A stretch of DNA of 56,582 nucleotides from a virus. The DNA is taken from IMG/VR virus record IMGVR_UViG_3300025889_000144, positions 1 to 56,582 of that record. One strand, written 5' to 3'. The notes below the pieces were generated by a model, which searched no databases, was not told where the DNA came from, and saw only the letters and a program-made list of their open reading frames with translations. Shown piece by piece: positions 8,036-50,989 of this stretch. Position 1 is the stretch's first letter; each line of letters starts with the position of its first letter. The translations under genes were made by a program, and so were the position numbers.

Positions 8036-9220
8036 ATGAACGACTCACTCTTCTCAAACCTCCAAAGCTTTCGCGCATCACTTAACACCAGCTTTCTTGA
8101 GCGAGCTGATGTTATCGATGGTCTACTCGCATCTTTAATTACGAAGCAAAACAGCTTTCTGTTCGGTCTCCCCGGCACGGGTAAGTCTGAGCTTGTGCGA
8201 GCAGTATCAAATGGGTTTAAAGGCTCTCAGTTTTTTGGCTACCTTCTCTCGCCCACAACAGATCCGTCTGAGCTATTCGGGCCGGTAGCAGTCTCGAAGC
8301 TACTTAATGATGAGTATGTTCGTGACGTCAAAGGATACCTACCTACGGCAAACATTGCATTCCTAGACGAGCTCTTTCGTGGTAGCTCTGCAGTTCTTAA
8401 TTCTCTGCTGACGATCCTGAATGAGCGTACATTCAACAACGGTCGCGATGTTTTAGAAACTCCTATTCAGTCGATCGTCGCTGCAACCAACTCTTTTCCT
8501 CAGGAAGAATCACTCCAAGCTTTCTGCGATCGATTTCTATTTCGTCCAACAGTCGATCTTCTGAAGAAGCCAACGTCAAAACGTAGTCTCGATGCCTGGG
8601 CTCTCGGTATCAAACAACGTCCGGTAGTGGAATCGAAGCTCACGTTCGACGACCTTACAACCCTTCAGCAAGAGGTAGCGAACGTAAGCGCCAGCGAGGA
8701 ATTCCTGGATTCCTTCACCCAAGTTATCGATCTACTTGCTACACGAGGCATCGTCATCAGCGATCGCCGAAGAGTACAGATCCTTAAGTTCTTGCGTGGT
8801 TGGGCTCTGGTTCAAGGTGACGAAGAACTGTTCCCCGAACACCTACATCGCTCACTGATACACATTGTATATCAAACACAAGACGACGTTCAGGTGATCA
8901 AAGAAGTCTTGGAGCAAGCTGTTCCTACAGCCGAAAAGCTTATGGAAAGCATTAAACGGGCTCACAATGGAATCCTTACTGAATACCACGCGCTTCACGC
9001 AGGAGACTCGAAGAGTGTTGATGATCTAAACCGCTTGGTCGGTAAGCTTCGCAAAATGCACCGTGATCTAGATACTCTCTCTAACAAACTAGATAACATC
9101 CTGGAGTCTGGTCAGTATCGAATCAGCGCCAGTGCTCGCCAGGCTGCGACCAAACTTGCTCAGACAATCGAGTCTTCTTCTCAATCAGTAGCGGCTTCGA
9201 TCTCTAACGTCTCATCATGA
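8036..9220 (+). CDS. MoxR/RavA-type AAA+ ATPase
   Basis: 394-aa ATPase. Walker A GLPGTGKS (44-51), TDPSELFGP (75-83, typical MoxR), Walker B IAFLDELF (107-114), sensor-1 ATNSFP (150-155) and Arg-finger region CDRFLFR (164-170) are all intact, followed by a helical lid and a C-terminal coiled coil with amphipathic heptads. MoxR/RavA and CobS proteins form hexameric rings that remodel or load metal/cofactor centres together with VWA partners. The stop overlaps the VWA gene start by 4 nt (ATGA), so the two are made together. Which client it acts on is unknown. Confidence 0.9.
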   Translation: MNDSLFSNLQSFRASLNTSFLERADVIDGLLASLITKQNSFLFGLPGTGKSELVRAVSNGFKGSQFFGYLLSPTTDPSELFGPVAVSKLLNDEYVRDVKGYLPTANIAFLDELFRGSSAVLNSLLTILNERTFNNGRDVLETPIQSIVAATNSFPQEESLQAFCDRFLFRPTVDLLKKPTSKRSLDAWALGIKQRPVVESKLTFDDLTTLQQEVANVSASEEFLDSFTQVIDLLATRGIVISDRRRVQILKFLRGWALVQGDEELFPEHLHRSLIHIVYQTQDDVQVIKEVLEQAVPTAEKLMESIKRAHNGILTEYHALHAGDSKSVDDLNRLVGKLRKMHRDLDTLSNKLDNILESGQYRISASARQAATKLAQTIESSSQSVAASISNVSS

Positions 9221-10758
9221 AAACCAACACCGAGTTCCTTCGTCTTGTGAACAACGAGCCCCTCGTGCTCGCTGTATCCGCACTGTCCGATTTTCTATGG
9301 GATGACTTCATCCGGGATGCCCGCCCCATCGTTAAGTACCTTGAGGACAAGTACAACATCAAACAGCTCTCCCGTTTTGGAAAGGAGCTATTTGACTTTC
9401 TGTATAACGGCGGACAAGTAACTACGGTCATCAACTTCGACGAAATCGAATCTTACTTTCGTGCGAAACAGAACGGACAAAACCCAGACTTTCCGAAAGG
9501 ATACAAACCTGAGTACGCATTCTGGTACAGCCTTTTTGTACAAGTGTGCGAATCGCCCTCATGGCCACGGCTAGTCAGTCTCTCGATTGGAGATCAGTTC
9601 ACCTCAGGTAACAACGCTGTGAACGTGTTGAACGAGCTCAGCGAAATCCTGATGGTTGAGCTAGAGAACAACTCACTTAGTGAGGAGCTCCTGAGCCAAG
9701 GTGCTCAACAGCTTCAAGACATTCGTGAACAGTTCATGGAAGCTAAGAAGCGAGGCGACAATGCGAAAGCTGCTGAGTTGCGCCAGCAGGGGAAGGAGCT
9801 CGGTCGTCAGATGGAGCAGAGCTTGCTTCAGGTAAGCGAGCAGATGCAGCCTCAGGTGGACAAGGCAGTCGATCGTGCGCACCAAGCAGCTAAGGACAAC
9901 CAGGAAGCAATAGCTGCCCTCGCTGGAACTGAGGCTGGTAAAGGGATCGGCCTCAACGATCTTGAACAAAAGCGAAACCTCGCTCGAAAGCTCAGCAGCA
10001 ATCCTGGCCTTAAGGAACTTGTGCGCCGCTTGGGTGCCTTGCGACAGGCATGGGCTGATCGCAAGCGAACTCGCAGATCACAGACCAGCTATAGCGATAT
10101 TGTCGGCGCCAAGTTCTCTGACACAATCACAAAAGCTTTCCCTGCTGAGATCGCGTTAGCTGCCACGGAGCAAGGTCGTGCTCTATTTGCCCTGAGGTAC
10201 AGTCAGAAAACACTGTTGTGTAAAGACTACGAAGCGAAAGTAAAAGAGCTCGATAAAGGCCCTGTTGTTCTTTACATCGACATCAGTGGTTCGATGGCAG
10301 GAGAGTGTGAGCTCTGGTCAAAAGCTATTGCTTACGTCGTTGCTGAGGAATGCCTCAAGCAGAAGCGTGCAACACACATTCATCTCTTCGATACTGTTGT
10401 GCAGAAGAGTATTCACCTGGATAAGGATCGAGCGGATAACGAGCGTCTCCTTAACTTTGTCCTTTCATGGACAACCAGAGGCGGTACGTCCTTCTGTTCA
10501 GTTATTAACCACGCGCTGTCGGAGGTCAACTTTGTCGATAAAGCCGATATTTTGATGATCACAGACGGAAACGCTGAGGTCTCAGATCCGTTCGTGCGCC
10601 GTCTCAACGCATTCAAGCAAGAGCACGGTGTGCAGTGGAACAGCTTCTGTATCGGCAAGCAAGCTCGTGTGCTTAAAGAGTTCAGTGATTATGTGCACAC
10701 TGTAGATGTTCTGGACGATCCTAAGAGCGCAGAGTTGTTTCAAGATGCTCTCCGGTAA
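9217..10758 (+). CDS. VWA-domain protein (ViaA/CoxE/CobT-like), ATPase partner
   Basis: 513-aa protein. The N-terminal ~160 residues are helical; a long charged helical middle (RGDNAKAAELRQQGKELGRQ) follows; the C-terminal third is a von Willebrand A domain with an intact MIDAS: DISGS (355-359), the Thr of RGGTS (424) and TDG (Asp450). This order matches ViaA, the adaptor of RavA, and CobT-like chelatase subunits. It binds a divalent metal and probably recruits the client for the upstream ATPase. ATGA overlap with the ATPase gene. Confidence 0.88.
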   Translation: MKTNTEFLRLVNNEPLVLAVSALSDFLWDDFIRDARPIVKYLEDKYNIKQLSRFGKELFDFLYNGGQVTTVINFDEIESYFRAKQNGQNPDFPKGYKPEYAFWYSLFVQVCESPSWPRLVSLSIGDQFTSGNNAVNVLNELSEILMVELENNSLSEELLSQGAQQLQDIREQFMEAKKRGDNAKAAELRQQGKELGRQMEQSLLQVSEQMQPQVDKAVDRAHQAAKDNQEAIAALAGTEAGKGIGLNDLEQKRNLARKLSSNPGLKELVRRLGALRQAWADRKRTRRSQTSYSDIVGAKFSDTITKAFPAEIALAATEQGRALFALRYSQKTLLCKDYEAKVKELDKGPVVLYIDISGSMAGECELWSKAIAYVVAEECLKQKRATHIHLFDTVVQKSIHLDKDRADNERLLNFVLSWTTRGGTSFCSVINHALSEVNFVDKADILMITDGNAEVSDPFVRRLNAFKQEHGVQWNSFCIGKQARVLKEFSDYVHTVDVLDDPKSAELFQDALR

Positions 10759-17566: not shown

Positions 17567-18391
17567 ATGGTATTTATCGCTGGCAAATTTTCGGCTGATG
17601 AAATTCTCTGCCAAGTCCCACCGCACACGCTCCGGATCGATCTTCAAAGCCGCTATTGGAAATCCGATACTGACAGCGAAGCGGCGATCGTCGACAGTAA
17701 CGGGAATGGGATACCGATTTCGTTTGTCCTTCTCGGCTTCACGCCGTACTTCGGCAACCTCGGTATGCGATCGCATGAAGAGTTTATTCGTATTGCTTAC
17801 ATTGGTGTTACACCTAACCATCGTCTGCTGCCACCTCGCTGTGTATGCACTAGCATCATCAGTGGCAAATCGTCTCAGAGGAACTTCATCTCGTACTTCC
17901 AGACGCTCTATAACAACCGTATTAACGTAGGTGAGGTTGTCACTGAAACCAAGTTCGTTCAAAAATCTTTCAACGAACGTGATCCAATGACTGGGGCGGA
18001 CGGCGCAAAGATCAACTACAACGTTTTAGAGTTCAGGGATCGTCCTGCTCAAACGGATGAAGAGCAAAAGCTCATCGAAGACATCAGTAATTGGCTCGAC
18101 GCTGGTTCAGGAGATCTGGTGGCATCTGCTCTACGCAGTACTATCTCCGGCGCTCATCTGGTTGAGCTTCCTCTTGGAGAAGACCACACGGCCATTAAGG
18201 AGGCTTTCATCGAAGCTAATCCGAAACGGCTAGAAGGATCCGCCCCGGCTGGCCTCGCTGCTCTGCCTGCAGGCGCGGGTGCACCAGGCTCTAAAGCTGA
18301 AGCTCCACCCGAACCCAAAAAGGCTACGGGTAAAAAAGAGCTGACGGAAGATCAAAAAGCTGCGCTTAAAGCTGCAGGACTTGATTTTTAA
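17567..18391 (+). CDS. Hypothetical protein co-transcribed with ssb
   Basis: 274-aa protein: a beta-rich N-terminal domain (IRIAYIGVTPNHRLLPPRCV), a helical middle and a flexible Ala/Pro/Lys tail that ends LKAAGLDF, very like the acidic-hydrophobic end of the SSB next door. It may be an SSB or polymerase accessory factor; no family is recognised. It sits 9 nt after ssb and ends before a strong terminator. Confidence 0.65.
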   Translation: MVFIAGKFSADEILCQVPPHTLRIDLQSRYWKSDTDSEAAIVDSNGNGIPISFVLLGFTPYFGNLGMRSHEEFIRIAYIGVTPNHRLLPPRCVCTSIISGKSSQRNFISYFQTLYNNRINVGEVVTETKFVQKSFNERDPMTGADGAKINYNVLEFRDRPAQTDEEQKLIEDISNWLDAGSGDLVASALRSTISGAHLVELPLGEDHTAIKEAFIEANPKRLEGSAPAGLAALPAGAGAPGSKAEAPPEPKKATGKKELTEDQKAALKAAGLDF

Positions 18392-18448: not shown

Positions 18449-18682
18449 CTACAGTTCGAGGAGGTCTCCAAAAGACGGGAGGTGCACCCCGTAAGCCACG
18501 CAGTATTTGATTATGTTTTCCAGAAGTTTTGCGCGAATCAAGTAGTTGGCGTAGACAACCTCAAGTACTTCACGAGCTTCTTTACGGCTAAGCTTATCCA
18601 TGCCATCCAAGAAGGCACGGTGTGTGAACTGCTGCTCAAGCGTTAAGTGAGATCGCAGCTTGTCTACTAGCTCCTCCGCCAT
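18449..18682 (-). CDS. nblA: NblA-like phycobilisome degradation protein
   Basis: 77-aa protein. The core LTLEQQFTHRAFLDGMDKLS (13-32) followed by A-x-x-V-L-x-V-V-Y...LIR (46-50) and a C-terminal IIKY helix fits the NblA pattern (LxLEQQFxxRxF, S-x-x-x-A, LYxxxxxR). NblA is a small helical adaptor that directs Clp protease to phycobilisomes; it is known in some freshwater cyanophages. It lies alone on the minus strand within a plus-strand block, so it has its own promoter inside the 18681 gene. Extra ~12 N- and ~15 C-terminal residues beyond the core. Confidence 0.8.
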   Translation of the reverse strand: MAEELVDKLRSHLTLEQQFTHRAFLDGMDKLSRKEAREVLEVVYANYLIRAKLLENIIKYCVAYGVHLPSFGDLLEL

Positions 18683-19217
18683 GACAAATTTCTATCGTGT
18701 CCCTCGTTACATCTTTGATCCTATCCGGAATGCCGGCTTGGTTGAAGGTGCGGTTCTTTTACCGTTTGACCCCCAAGGAGCTTTAGAAAAACAGGTCCGT
18801 AAGGCGCAGGTGACGGAAGTCATCAGCAACTCTTGCGAGGAAAACCTCGTAGATCTTGATTGGTGGTCGCAGCAAAAAGGGACAATCGACTGGGTTGTGG
18901 CAATCACCCAGGGAATGAAGGACTACACGAAGTGGATAACTGAATGTGGACTACAAGCGGCTAGAAAAGGTGTGTGCGTTTTAGATAGACTCACATTCCT
19001 CGAGCCGACGCGAGCACGCGAAGATTTCTTAAAAGACGCATCTCTCACAAACATTAAGATCTTGAGCCCAAGGCCATCATTCCGTGCGGATGGTACTAAT
19101 TCAAAAGATCCTGTGACTTCTGCGTGGTTTATATTTCAGAAACCCGGAGCTGCTCAAGTCAGTACAACGATCGATTTCGAAGTAAATTGGCACCGCCCAC
19201 AAGACCTCAAGCTATGA
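18681..19217 (+). CDS. Degenerate methyltransferase-like protein
   Basis: 178-aa protein. The order LLPFDPQGALE, a DWVV strand, then KDYTKWITECGLQAARKGVC, LDRLTFLEPTRAR and PRPSF...SAWFIFQK resembles the C-terminal half of phage class I SAM-dependent DNA methyltransferases. The NPPY/F catalytic motif expected after DWVV is missing (AITQG instead), so it is likely inactive or repurposed. The ATG at 18681 shares a CATG with the divergent NblA start; a TTG at 18660 is an alternative. ATGA overlap with the next gene. Confidence 0.6.
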   Translation: MTNFYRVPRYIFDPIRNAGLVEGAVLLPFDPQGALEKQVRKAQVTEVISNSCEENLVDLDWWSQQKGTIDWVVAITQGMKDYTKWITECGLQAARKGVCVLDRLTFLEPTRAREDFLKDASLTNIKILSPRPSFRADGTNSKDPVTSAWFIFQKPGAAQVSTTIDFEVNWHRPQDLKL

Positions 19218-45977: not shown

Positions 45978-46805
45978 TCAAATAACTGAGCGCGGCGCCC
46001 CGAACGCTCCTAAGGCTTGAGCTAAAAGTTGACTCTTAGCTGCCTCTGCAGCAATTAAATTTTTACTAACTTCGTTAGCCTGTTTTTCCTGAAGAGCTTT
46101 TTGATAAGCCTCTTGTTCTTGCTTATCTGTATAAGCTTTTAAAATTAAATCAAGTTCATTTTGCGTGACGACTCCGGAGTCTTCGTTGTAATCAGGTAAC
46201 GGCGGAGCGTCTAATCCACGGGGGGTCGGTACAGAAGTAAAAGACGCTTTTGGTTTGTTTATTAAATCAATAAATTTATTTAGAAGAATTCCACTTAAAA
46301 CGTCTGACTCAAGCGAATCAGTACTGGGTTGACCTGCGGATGTCTGTGAGTAAGAAGCACCCTGACTCTCTGCAAACTTTTTTAAGGCATCAAAGCTTTT
46401 TACAGGCTGCCCATAAGCGCTTCGCCCTTCCATCGTGGGGAGCGACGCCCACTCATTAGCTACTTTCGCAATATTCTCTCGAGTTAACGGGTCGCGATCA
46501 GGATCAACTCCTCTCCATTTGAGCAACTGCAGAGCTGCTAGATCCTGCGACTGAGGCCCGAAATCTCTAAGGCCCAGTGCCTTCTGAGCACGAGCCCAGG
46601 TCTCAGGCATGAATTGGTACGCTCCAGCAGCAGCACTCGAGTACTTACCTCCCCGGACAACACGATCCGGGTGTTTACTCAAGTCTTTAATCGGTGTATA
46701 CCCAAAAGTTATGTCATAGCGAGGCGCAGAACCTCCCCAAGTTCCTTCGGCAAAAGCAATAGTGTTCAGCCAACGCCTTGCGTTAGGGCTAATACCGTCA
46801 CTCAT
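45978..46805 (-). CDS. Lambda R-like muramidase (GH104)
   Basis: 275-aa protein. WLNTIAFAEGT with catalytic E20, YDITFGYTPIKDLSKHP, AAGAYQFMPETWARAQKALG and DFGPQSQDLAALQLLKWRGV align in order with lambda lysozyme/transglycosylase (R). The ~120-residue C-terminus is a helical, Gln/Ala-rich tail with a coiled coil (EQEAYQKALQEKQANEVSKN). Placed among virion genes rather than next to the endolysin, so it may be a virion-associated hydrolase for DNA entry. Confidence 0.82.
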   Translation of the reverse strand: MSDGISPNARRWLNTIAFAEGTWGGSAPRYDITFGYTPIKDLSKHPDRVVRGGKYSSAAAGAYQFMPETWARAQKALGLRDFGPQSQDLAALQLLKWRGVDPDRDPLTRENIAKVANEWASLPTMEGRSAYGQPVKSFDALKKFAESQGASYSQTSAGQPSTDSLESDVLSGILLNKFIDLINKPKASFTSVPTPRGLDAPPLPDYNEDSGVVTQNELDLILKAYTDKQEQEAYQKALQEKQANEVSKNLIAAEAAKSQLLAQALGAFGAPRSVI

Positions 46806-47031
46806 CCTCAGGATCTTCGAATATATCTATATTAGTGTCGATAGCCACGCCGATCTCCTCCATAACCGACTTGTAAGCTCTCTCCCGGCACACAAATCTA
46901 AAAATTGTCTTCCAAAGATACTGATCACGAGCCTCGCCCTTAAGTGCGTGAGCAGCGTTTTTGAGCCGTTGAAGCGTGAAATCATCTTCGAGAGTCAAAC
47001 CGACTCGGATGTGCCCATGCTCGTCCTTCAC
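46798..47031 (-). CDS. Hypothetical small acidic protein
   Basis: 77-aa acidic protein (GHIRVGLTLEDDFTLQRLKN; EDPEDE end), overlapping the muramidase gene by 8 nt. Mostly helical. Could be an assembly factor for the virion hydrolase (inference from coupling). Confidence 0.6.
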   Translation of the reverse strand: MKDEHGHIRVGLTLEDDFTLQRLKNAAHALKGEARDQYLWKTIFRFVCRERAYKSVMEEIGVAIDTNIDIFEDPEDE

Positions 47032-47084: not shown

Positions 47085-47333
47085 TCACCAAGCTTTACAA
47101 CTCCAATAACGAGCTTTCAACTTACTTCCAGGGTTATCACAGTTATGACGTGCTCTGAAAGACTCTCGTCGCTCTGGTATGTGTTTTTTAATCGTCATGT
47201 TTGGGTCACCAAATCGCACTAAGCGCACCTCATCACCCTCCTTGGCCGCTACAGCGAATTTCTTTCCACCATCGGAGTCACGACGGGGTTGGTTGTACCC
47301 GGCAAACTTTTCCCCGGCTAAGCGGATGGCCAC
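47085..47333 (-). CDS. Conserved basic phage protein (DUF5872-like)
   Basis: 82-aa basic protein. GYNQPRRDSDGGKKFAVAAK, EVRLVRFGD and RRESFRARHNC are the pattern of small basic proteins widespread in phages and bacteria of aquatic habitats (PKRTPxHPxKSHVVxxKEGxxxKxIRFG...RRKSFKARH). Function unknown; a DNA-binding or virion role is plausible. Confidence 0.65.
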   Translation of the reverse strand: MAIRLAGEKFAGYNQPRRDSDGGKKFAVAAKEGDEVRLVRFGDPNMTIKKHIPERRESFRARHNCDNPGSKLKARYWSCKAW

Positions 47334-47728: not shown

Positions 47729-48271
47729 ATGAACACTCCCTCTTTGACTGATATCTTTCAAAACGCTGTCCAAGCGCCGACACAAGAAGTCGTTAAAGAG
47801 GAAGTGGTTATTACAAAGGAGGCCACGCCTGATAACCTCGTTTATCAGATGGTCTCCTTTGCTTCGTATCTCTATCAATTAAACATTCAAGCGCACCTAC
47901 TGCACTTCAACGTAGAGTGCTCAAACTTTTTGGCCGTCCACAAGTTTTTAGGTAAACAGTATCAGCAACACTTAGCTGACTTTGACACGATTTCTGAATT
48001 AGTCAGGAGCATGGACTTCCTGATGCCTATGTGTCAGTGCGGTTTATTTGACGCATTTAAAAAATTCCCAGCTGTTAAAACATACGATGCTCGTGAAGGT
48101 TTAACTCTTTACACAAAGAACCTCGAAGCAGGCGCCATGATGGCGAAAGATCTAGTCGACGCCGCGAAAGAGACTGGTGCTCCGGATGTAGAAAACTTCG
48201 CCGCTGAGATCTGCGGAAACCTCTTCAAAGGAGCTTGGATGCTAAAAGCTACCCTTCGAGGATCTATGTGA
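47729..48271 (+). CDS. dps: Dps/ferritin-like protein
   Basis: 180-aa protein. The spacing H59-x11-H71-x14-D86-x3-E90 (LLHFNV, LAVHKF, FDTISEL) matches E. coli Dps ferroxidase residues H51, H63, D78 and E82 exactly, in the right order. A helical 4-helix-bundle body follows (LLHFNVECSNFLAVHKFLGK; a long C-terminal helix). It should bind iron and remove H2O2, and may protect phage DNA. N-terminal ~35 residues are an extra acidic/helical arm. Ends 8 nt inside a convergent gene. Confidence 0.75.
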   Translation: MNTPSLTDIFQNAVQAPTQEVVKEEVVITKEATPDNLVYQMVSFASYLYQLNIQAHLLHFNVECSNFLAVHKFLGKQYQQHLADFDTISELVRSMDFLMPMCQCGLFDAFKKFPAVKTYDAREGLTLYTKNLEAGAMMAKDLVDAAKETGAPDVENFAAEICGNLFKGAWMLKATLRGSM

Positions 48272-48908
48272 GGATCCAACCTCCATTAGCCGAAACGTAT
48301 AGACCACTTGCTCCAGAATTTAAATAAACAAGGTAGCCGTCTACAGCTGTGGGCAGAGTAGTAACTACGGCAACTCCACTAGCAACTACAGCTGATAAAG
48401 AACCACTCGCTGTAATAGCGGATATAGCTCCACTGGCAATAGTCGAAGAGATAGAGCCACTCGCAATTACAGCAGAAAGAGCTCCACTTGCGATGACGGA
48501 AGAGTAAGCGCCGCTAGCGACAATAGCTGAGTTAGCGGTATTAGCTGTAGTTGCACTACCTGCCGTTGTTGCAAAATTTGCGTTATCGGCAGTGTCTGAA
48601 AACCCAGCTCCTACTTTTTGCCACGCGGATCCCGTCCAAACTCGAAGATAGTAAGCAGCGGAAGTATCTACCCATGTCTCACCTACTGAATTACCAGCAG
48701 AACCTACTGGGCTTGAGTTAGGCGCCGAAGCTCCGTAGTGATTCGAACCAAACTTCCGAATACTGCCAGCTGAATCCTTGAAATAAAGACCAGGGTCAGC
48801 GGCGCCGAAGCTCATCGCAGCTTCACCAGCCTGAACAGTAGTCGTATTTGGGCGATCTGAAGAGTTACCAGATCGCTTAGAAAGCAGAATAACTGGAGTA
48901 GATGCCAT
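48264..48908 (-). CDS. Tail-fibre-like protein with 9-aa ASG repeats
   Basis: 214-aa protein. After a beta head (LYFKDSAGSIRKFGS; ETWVDTSAAYYLRVWTGSAW) come about six 9-residue units of the type (S/A)-x-x-I/V-A-S-G-x-(I/L)-S (residues 127-178), and a short end domain. Likely a fibre stalk. The start shares a CATG with the divergent HNH gene. Confidence 0.65.
   Translation of the reverse strand: MASTPVILLSKRSGNSSDRPNTTTVQAGEAAMSFGAADPGLYFKDSAGSIRKFGSNHYGASAPNSSPVGSAGNSVGETWVDTSAAYYLRVWTGSAWQKVGAGFSDTADNANFATTAGSATTANTANSAIVASGAYSSVIASGALSAVIASGSISSTIASGAISAITASGSLSAVVASGVAVVTTLPTAVDGYLVYLNSGASGLYVSANGGWILT
48375..48530 (-). repeat. 27-bp tandem repeats coding for the stalk
   Basis: Tandem ~27-bp units encoding IASG-type repeats. 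Some variation exists between copies. Confidence 0.6.
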
Positions 48909-49437
48909 GTTAGTATTACGATCCCGCTCTGTGAATTATATGGCTGGAGGGCCTGTGTATCCTGGTCCGTATGAGTACTATAGCCACAAAGTACTAATCG
49001 GAGAACCAGAAAGCTGTTGGGAGTGGAAGGGTAGTTGCGGTAGTCCTGGATACGGGAACTGGTGCTTTTCTGTAAACGGCCTACCTAGGCGAGGGTCGGC
49101 TCATAGAAGGGCTTATATCTTATTTAACGGAGATTGTGAAGGGAAACAGGTGAACCATTCGTGCGGTAATAGAAAATGCTGTAACCCCAATCACTTATAC
49201 GCTGGCAGTCAAAAAGAAAATCATGTAGACACAGTAGAACACGGGAGACACAGTCCTCCCCCGTATAAAAAAGGCTCTGACATAGGTACTTCAAAATTAA
49301 CTGAGAGCAACATAAGAGAAATAAAGAAATTACTTAAAGAAGGAAAAAAAGGAGTCTATATAGCCAGAAAATTTAATGTAACTACAGCTTGTATATCCGC
49401 AATAAAAAAAGGAACTAACTGGAAGTGGGTAGAGTAA
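48907..49437 (+). CDS. HNH homing endonuclease with C-terminal HTH
   Basis: 176-aa protein. VNHSCGNRKCCNPNH has catalytic H84 and zinc/structural C86, C91, H96; N-terminal CWEWKG and CFSVNG fit the HNH_3/NUMOD family, and the C-terminal TESNIREIKKLLKEGKKGVY...NVTTACISAIKKGTNW is the usual HTH. This intact member contrasts with 16384 and 41889. The start at 48907 or the internal ATG 48940 are both possible. Confidence 0.88.
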   Translation: MLVLRSRSVNYMAGGPVYPGPYEYYSHKVLIGEPESCWEWKGSCGSPGYGNWCFSVNGLPRRGSAHRRAYILFNGDCEGKQVNHSCGNRKCCNPNHLYAGSQKENHVDTVEHGRHSPPPYKKGSDIGTSKLTESNIREIKKLLKEGKKGVYIARKFNVTTACISAIKKGTNWKWVE

Positions 49438-49444
49438 ATAAACA

Positions 49445-50989
49445 TCAAAAAACGCCTCCGTTTATAAGTGACGGATACGATGGGTATGGTATCAGTACGC
49501 CATTAGAGTACTGACCGCCATCATAAATTAAACTCGCTCCACTAACTAAGACTCCGTTGCTGTAAGTGCCTCCATCTAGTTTTGGTGTTACTTCAGGGTC
49601 AGGGGGAGCAAAAGGATTATATTGATCTATTTTGAACATCTCGAATCCACTTGGCGTCATAGCTGTGGATGTACCTGATGCCAATGTATCAAAATTAAGT
49701 GTTTTTATCATAGTAGGGTGCATATCTGGGTACATCATGTGATTTGGTACTGTATTCTGCGAAGGCGAATACTTCTCCCACCAACGAAGTTTCTGCTGAC
49801 GCTTCTCAAATGTTGTTTGCTTAGCAAGATTGATCTCAAACTCTTCTCTATAACGATCGTCCATAGGTTCGTCACTTGGCTGGGAGAGCCACGCTTTAGA
49901 GAAAACGTCGTCTCCAAAACGATTTTGCATGTCCCAGAAGGACGCATAAATGTGCTTACACCAACGAGGCGCAAAGTAAAGAAGGTTGGGGTCTGAGTAG
50001 ACCTTTGATCCGTCCGAATACGACGGAAGATCTAGTATTTTCTTTACGTAGAGAAAACCAAAGTCACGACTGAAACCTGGGTAATCTCGCGAAGGTGAGG
50101 TTCTCCCTGTTTGATAATCTCTTCCCGCGTCATATTGACCTGGTTTTAAGTCTTGGGGGAGTGTGTAGGGGTACTTACGTTTAAGACTGTATTCGTAAAG
50201 ATTAAAATCTTCACGAGCTAAGTAATCTGGACAGTTGCAACCAAATCGCATCTCCGTAGTGAAATAGTCGCCAGGAGTGGGCAGCGAAGCTGGTACTGAT
50301 AAGGTTTCGTTGTCTATAACTGACCAACTGTTGCTGGTATCTAGAGATATAAAGATACTGTTGTATATGGGTGCGAACCCTGGCGTAATAGGTGTTGTTC
50401 CGTTACCGACACCTACAACTGTGTAGTTATTGTATGTAGTCTTTTCCGTACCATCAGCGGCAAAACGATCTGAGAGAACTTCACCGGTAAAGAAAGAAAT
50501 AGGTGGTCCGAAGTTACTAGAAAGCTCTACGGCATAGACTGTATCACTTGTTTTAGTTACAGACTTTATAGAGTAACCAAAGTCTAAGAAATTAAACGAG
50601 TCACGAGGACGTACGGCAACCATCCGCATGGCCATATCTTGACTCATGGACGGGTACATGTAACACACGCCAGGTAGCGCTGCGCCCACCCCCACGGTGC
50701 CTGTTGTCCAGTATCTAAATGAATAATTAAGTCCTACGTACGCCTGATTAGCGTACATATACAGCTCATATCCCCTGCGCCACCGCGTCCACATTGACGC
50801 GTAGTTGTAGTCAAAGAGAATACTAAAATCTTTTAAATTAAAGTCAGGTCTAAACTTACGTTTAAACGGCATTGGGGAGCCGAGCTGGTGAGAGGAGCTC
50901 GCACCCTCAAACGAAGAAAACCCGAACTTCGATTTCTTTGGCTGGTGTGAGTGCCAACCAAAGTCATCGGAGCCCTTTCTTCGTGCCAT
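49445..50989 (-). CDS. Large structural protein with SWIM-like CxC...CxH
   Basis: 514-aa Tyr/Pro/Phe-rich virion-type protein. The motif FGCNCPDYLAR (C251, C253) and WCKHIYA (C344, H346) form a SWIM-type zinc finger (CxCx..CxH) but with ~90 residues between the pairs, where SWIM fingers usually have far fewer. A basic N-terminus and repeated GGTYSNGVL / GGQYSNGVL end motifs are seen. Likely a tail or baseplate protein. Confidence 0.7.
   Translation of the reverse strand: MARRKGSDDFGWHSHQPKKSKFGFSSFEGASSSHQLGSPMPFKRKFRPDFNLKDFSILFDYNYASMWTRWRRGYELYMYANQAYVGLNYSFRYWTTGTVGVGAALPGVCYMYPSMSQDMAMRMVAVRPRDSFNFLDFGYSIKSVTKTSDTVYAVELSSNFGPPISFFTGEVLSDRFAADGTEKTTYNNYTVVGVGNGTTPITPGFAPIYNSIFISLDTSNSWSVIDNETLSVPASLPTPGDYFTTEMRFGCNCPDYLAREDFNLYEYSLKRKYPYTLPQDLKPGQYDAGRDYQTGRTSPSRDYPGFSRDFGFLYVKKILDLPSYSDGSKVYSDPNLLYFAPRWCKHIYASFWDMQNRFGDDVFSKAWLSQPSDEPMDDRYREEFEINLAKQTTFEKRQQKLRWWEKYSPSQNTVPNHMMYPDMHPTMIKTLNFDTLASGTSTAMTPSGFEMFKIDQYNPFAPPDPEVTPKLDGGTYSNGVLVSGASLIYDGGQYSNGVLIPYPSYPSLINGGVF

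Follow-up and report, generated by a model that had tools for sequence, protein, structure and literature searches.

A Dps-family mini-ferritin is a core gene of a probable cyanophage lineage in which one sister clade appears to have lost the iron site

What does a phage gain from a Dps-family protein, and is iron oxidation the reason why the gene is kept? The question is raised by a 56.6-kb virus record, analyzed here over its whole length of 56,582 nucleotides and called the window, in which a preliminary description made from the letters alone had singled out one open reading frame as a phage Dps with exact ferroxidase spacing. The frame was recovered as described, with 180 codons, an ATG start, and a plus-strand orientation (Table 1). 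The ferritin profile search that had been proposed as a check placed the protein in Pfam Ferritin (PF00210) with an E value of 1e-7 and 32.4 bits, above the cut-off of 24.5 bits, and PF00210 was also matched by all 31 aligned members; in addition, the window protein matched PHROG 3636 with an E value of 5e-19. Solved Dps sequences matched it as well in profile searches, where the Dps proteins of Campylobacter jejuni and Pseudomonas aeruginosa outranked cyanobacterial Dps. An AF2 model of the monomer, computed from the 31-sequence alignment, had a pLDDT of 80 (∼92 to 97 in the core helices) and predicted a short BC helix in addition to four long helices (residues 34 to 61, 67 to 94, 96 to 102, 121 to 149, and 152 to 178); the helical bundle that the preliminary description had anticipated, and on whose presence in a structure model it had staked its claim, is thus found in the prediction. 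Foldseek against the PDB returned Dps chains as the best matches (probability, 1.00; TM score, ∼0.68), and the phage family shares just 25 to 28% identity with its best cellular matches. The assignment to a phage-borne member of the Dps family is therefore upheld, and since phage Dps has been reported before, from S-EIV1, gut phages, and Lactobacillus phages, the window protein belongs to a type already known.

Table 1. Coordinates of the Dps gene, its functional codons, its neighbors, and the NblA gene in the window
Feature	Position	Strand	Remarks
NblA gene, MAEELVDKLRSHLTLEQQFTHRAF...	18449-18682	-	PF04485, E 7.6e-10, above cut-off; between 17567-18391 and 18660-19217
NblA-like two-helix protein, weak match	46798..47031	-	Conserved neighbor, 38/38 sister loci
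Conserved 82-aa protein	47085..47333	-	phrog_7595, E 4e-18; divergent from the HTH-Dps pair; 38/38 sister loci
Small HTH_17-type DNA-binding protein, 83 aa	47468..47719	+	PF12728, E 4.5e-6; stop 9 nt before Dps
Dps-family mini-ferritin gene	47729..48271	+	180 aa, ATG start; PF00210, phrog_3636, AF2, Foldseek
N-terminal tail, residues 1-33	47729..47827	+	Acidic; conserved motif P17..E20..E24 E25..K30 E31
His56 codon, position of E. coli Lys48	47894..47896	+	Invariant in 42 phage-type sequences; lost with H59/H71/D86 in FOC-less clade
His59 codon, ferroxidase ligand (E. coli Dps H51)	47903..47905	+	Invariant in 42 phage and 21 cellular sequences; Ser in FOC-less clade
His71 codon, ferroxidase ligand (H63 equivalent)	47939..47941	+	Ser in FOC-less clade
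Gly75 codon, at the E. coli D67 position (fifth FOC carboxylate)	47951..47953	+	Carboxylate absent in phage family
His81 codon, phage-family-specific	47969..47971	+	Invariant even with FOC-less clade included
Asp86 codon, ferroxidase ligand (D78 equivalent)	47984..47986	+	Asn in FOC-less clade
Glu90 codon, ferroxidase ligand (E82 equivalent)	47996..47998	+	Sole one of four ligands left in FOC-less clade
Minor tail protein gene, convergent	48264..48908	-	phrog_356 (tail), E 5e-16; 8-nt overlap with Dps 3' end

Gene content makes a cyanobacterium the very probable host, because the window encodes an NblA above the Pfam cut-off at ∼18.5 kb and because the Synechococcus phage S-EIV1 is the only isolate with recognizable relatives of both the Dps (47% identity) and the conserved 514-aa protein encoded at 49445-50989 (23%). 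This NblA gene is syntenic in relatives. As a further marker of host and ecology, psbA was looked for and was absent in all eight records checked. The window phage carries, besides its one clear NblA, a weaker NblA-like gene next to the Dps locus, whose product fell below the PF04485 cut-off (E = 0.0012; 19.7 bits versus 25), with 6 of 19 members of its family matching; its best PDB profile match was NblA 1ojh at an E value of only 0.29, and its two-helix model was of low confidence. Elsewhere in the window (8036-10758, plus strand), the gene order is an AAA ATPase (phrog_19600) and then a 513-aa protein judged VWA-like by eye, which would make a MoxR/VWA-type pair.

To see how firmly the gene is fixed at its place, sister loci were collected through the 514-aa neighbor protein, independently of Dps, and counted where the flank reached at least 2.5 kb. 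The HTH, Dps, NblA-like, and 82-aa genes were all present in 38 of 38 such loci, and Dps is a core gene of this phage lineage. The close spacing behind an HTH regulator, noted in the preliminary description, is likewise a constant feature: the HTH-Dps gap was 0 to 10 nt in all tabulated loci but two, where it was 45 nt, and the partner belonged to the same HTH family in the five sister loci tested. Upstream of the pair, no consensus sigma-70 promoter was found. The convergent minor tail protein gene is also kept in sister loci. An HNH endonuclease ORF (48907-49437, plus strand; PF13392, E = 1e-10) lies between two conserved structural genes and, among the Dps loci tabulated, occurs also in contig L027; it looks like a mobile homing endonuclease.

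The iron chemistry proposed for the protein rests on H59, H71, D86, and E90, whose offsets from the first His (12, 27, and 31) are the Dps ferroxidase spacing and equal those of Escherichia coli H51, H63, D78, and E82. This observation was borne out: of the 104 open frames with 100 aa or more in the window, one contains the four-ligand pattern, and shuffling the Dps sequence reproduced it at a rate of 0.019% (∼2 in 10,000). Moreover, their counterparts in the alignment with P. aeruginosa Dps are the inter-subunit ligands H37/H49 and D64/E68, which hold a pair of irons at the subunit boundary and react with H2O2, making that protein a peroxide-dependent ferroxidase (PMC10002758). The word "exact" nevertheless applies to these four ligands and not to their surroundings, as revealed by a comparison of 42 phage-type with 21 cellular Dps sequences, both picked by the same four-ligand pattern, the few cellular sequences being largely from proteobacteria, with cyanobacterial Dps entering the comparison via solved structures only. 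At the position of E. coli D67, Gly or Lys was found in 42/42 phage-type sequences (Gly75 in the window) versus Asp or Glu in 19/21 cellular ones, and the residue after the first His was Leu or Phe in 42/42 (Phe60 in the window) versus Trp in 21/21. A D67-type carboxylate serves the second iron of the Dps ferroxidase center (FOC) (PMC9140674, PMC6675082), and the low-affinity iron site of E. coli Dps consists of K48, D67, and D78 (PMC9140674). Because the equivalents of these three residues are H56, G75, and D86, the low-affinity site appears to be altered in the phage family, and the high-affinity site (H59, H71, and E90) is predicted to be intact. Since the D67-equivalent carboxylate and the Trp are missing even in the window Dps, its ferroxidase activity could be reduced or altered. 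Conversely, H81 and F85 each occurred in 42/42 phage-type and 0/21 cellular sequences, and the invariant residues peculiar to the phage family are E63, H81, F85, M95-D96, and C102.

Codon comparison of the window Dps with its relatives gave dN/dS values of 0.02 to 0.07 (0.02 to 0.05 for close relatives), with synonymous sites near saturation, and the gene is under strong purifying selection. In the tree, phage Dps formed one long, fully supported branch of ∼5 changes per site, far from the sampled cellular Dps. A recent capture from the cyanobacterial host was considered and rejected in view of this very long branch and of the nearest solved relatives being the C. jejuni and P. aeruginosa proteins, in a comparison that included few cyanobacterial Dps. 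Related Dps genes in MAGs labeled bacterial or archaeal were not accepted as cellular either: contig L056 shares genes with S-EIV1-like phages and contig L057 encodes a Mu Gam-like protein, so that both look like binned phage contigs. In the MAG labeled Euryarchaeota, phage-type Dps is encoded on each of two contigs (L057 and L163) and forms a separate branch; a third phage lineage, binned with the MAG, is the probable source.

The four ligands had at first seemed invariant throughout the family, a view that proved to reflect the bias of the first search toward close relatives and was abandoned when the neighbor-gene search revealed a clade without the FOC. Eight contigs found via the neighbor gene (L092 to L096, L098, L103, and L106), and at least five further contigs found with the L094 protein as the query, encode homologues with the substitutions H56N, H59S, H71S, D86N, and W170G, leaving E90 alone of the ligands. 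As these proteins form a single clade (support, 100/100) nested among FOC-bearing relatives, one loss explains them, and the iron site appears to have been lost once. The FOC-less homologues score 14.5 to 18.1 bits, under the PF00210 cut-off, and their frames are intact in 13 contigs, with dN/dS values of 0.03 to 0.08 and with the HTH, 82-aa, and NblA-like neighbors retained beside them. Across FOC-bearing and FOC-less proteins, 24 residues are invariant, including E63, H81, F85, M95, D96, and C102. A compensating second ferritin was sought and dismissed, none being present in five FOC-less records of 36 to 80 kb. Because the FOC-less gene is kept under purifying selection, with its invariant residues and with no second ferritin in those records, the conserved role of the family does not seem to need the ferroxidase center. 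Thus, iron and oxidative buffering, as put forward in the preliminary description, stands as the natural prediction from a ferroxidase-type site but cannot be the entire function of the family, and what the FOC-less clade indicates is that the iron site is dispensable for those phages, not for the window phage. The idea that FOC loss tracks NblA loss was also discarded: Pfam NblA is absent in two FOC-less genomes, yet a diverged NblA-like frame stands at the syntenic place. New invariant residues have, for their part, arisen in the FOC-less clade: in window numbering, Cys at 83 (H-x-C-D-F-N) and Lys at 91 and 171 (L092, L095, and L164 to L172), with a new thiol or zinc site as a possible consequence.

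Considering these results together, we judge it rather likely that the window gene encodes a phage-adapted mini-ferritin, which in this phage oxidizes iron and stores it within a cage that also has a second conserved role independent of iron. The product would be one subunit of a hollow, probably 12-subunit cage made during infection of the cyanobacterium. Because the full four-ligand site is present, iron oxidation with peroxide use is predicted for the window phage: Fe(II) would be bound and oxidized, most likely with H2O2, at a site to which one subunit contributes H59 and H71 and its neighbor D86 and E90, and this uptake of iron and peroxide could spare the photosynthetic host Fenton chemistry, an antioxidant benefit. 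The second role of the cage, exerted without the iron site, would probably be of a protein-protein nature, via the acidic N-terminal tail and the phage-specific helix residues, and would explain why phages that have lost the iron site still keep the gene together with the HTH gene; a second cage function seems the simplest explanation for conservation without the site. A bolder version, which we put forward tentatively and with clearly less conviction, holds that in S-EIV1-like cyanophages Dps is a core protein with an essential function other than ferroxidation, for example the binding of a host or virion partner by the cage, that the acidic tail and E63, H81, F85, M95-D96, and C102 carry this function, and that the iron site is an accessory feature, lost as a block in one clade.

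The strongest competing explanation is that the gene is a simple antioxidant auxiliary, a normal Dps acquired from a host and serving only to detoxify iron and H2O2, with the FOC-less clade representing a gene on its way out. Such a role agrees with the complete four-ligand site in 42 sequences and has been proposed for gut-phage DPS (PMC8008677) and for Lactobacillus phages (PMC6669764). However, a gene on its way out is difficult to reconcile with the intact, constrained FOC-less frames and with phage-specific residues that outlast the loss of the iron site, and the long branch and the low identity to cellular Dps speak against a recent capture, so that we regard this explanation as unlikely.

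The N-terminal tail bears on the remaining alternatives. Its 33 residues in the window Dps comprise 2 basic and 5 acidic ones (net charge, -3), the tails of the window group range from -2 to -7, and the cores are net neutral to negative in nearly all members. Tail identity is close to core identity across the subclade (slightly lower), P17, E20, E24, E25, K30, and E31 are invariant in 30 sequences, and the acidic conserved tail is common to the FOC-bearing and FOC-less clades. Since it is nearly as conserved as the core and holds invariant residues, the tail suggests a protein contact. The protein could also be a virion-associated or assembly protein, made late as a cage that enters or helps build the particle, with iron binding being secondary. 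What makes this a serious alternative is the structural neighbor in the S-EIV1-like group, where Dps lies directly 3' of the virion structural gene phrog_1645 on the same strand in 10 loci, at distances from a 14-nt overlap up to 45 nt apart; the position of the window-group Dps within a structural-gene block, the conserved acidic tail, and the fact that the iron site can be lost point the same way. In the window group, however, the structural genes and the HTH-Dps pair occupy different strands, suggesting different timing, and we consider virion association improbable.

Protection of DNA by binding, as also envisaged in the preliminary description, finds no support in the window protein, whose C-terminus (...LKATLRGSM) is not basic and whose tail, being acidic in its first 33 residues, is unlikely to bind DNA, even though DNA activity is possible without a basic tail in P. 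aeruginosa Dps (PMC10002758). A role in condensing or protecting the DNA of phage or host is suggested by the family name, by the PHROG 3636 label (DNA binding protein), and by the basic tails of the S-EIV1-like group (KPKAPAKSK type; net +1 to +4) but, given the acidic tails and the neutral to negative cores of the window group, is highly improbable.

Phage Dps has so far been treated as an occasional antioxidant passenger, and in this cyanophage lineage the gene is fixed. The sister phages offer matched natural variants, with or without the iron site but alike in gene position and partner gene, a natural series that lets the cage role of Dps in infection be separated from its ferroxidase role. 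Among known systems, the Dps of the cyanophage S-EIV1 (AHV82153.1; KJ410740), annotated as "DNA-binding ferritin-like protein," is 47% identical over residues 36 to 177 and shares the four ligands and the H[L/F]N, G/K75, and H81 signature, but it differs in its basic N-terminal tail and in having no HTH partner directly upstream. It is followed by a gene annotated as sulfate adenylyltransferase (L055 8435-9901) that has no Pfam or PHROG match, and this annotation looks doubtful. Phage-encoded DPS has also been described in "Gratiaviridae" and 36 other gut phages (Benler 2021, PMC8008677) and in Lactobacillus plantarum phages (Kyrkou 2019, PMC6669764); the hosts there are gut bacteria and lactobacilli, the available text of these reports proposes a role in oxidative stress and describes no FOC-less clade, and no match to these phages was obtained in the phage records at an E value of 0.01. 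Of the cellular proteins, P. aeruginosa PA0962 and C. jejuni 3kwo have the same fold as the window Dps model (TM scores, 0.67 to 0.69), and the canonical Dps of P. aeruginosa, C. jejuni, and E. coli has its H/H/D/E ligands at the same spacing; the sampled cellular Dps also has the Trp and, in 19/21, the carboxylate, both of which the phage family lacks. The His-type FOC Dps of cyanobacteria (NpDps4, TeDpsA, and TlDps1) resembles the window Dps in having no D67-type carboxylate, the position being Asn in NpDps4 (PMC6675082). In these His-type proteins, however, His replaces D78, whereas the window Dps keeps Asp86 and is not of that type. A cellular precedent for Dps without an FOC is provided by DpsA and DpsB of Lactococcus lactis, which are reportedly Dps cages that have no classical ferroxidase center and bind DNA through an N-terminal helix.
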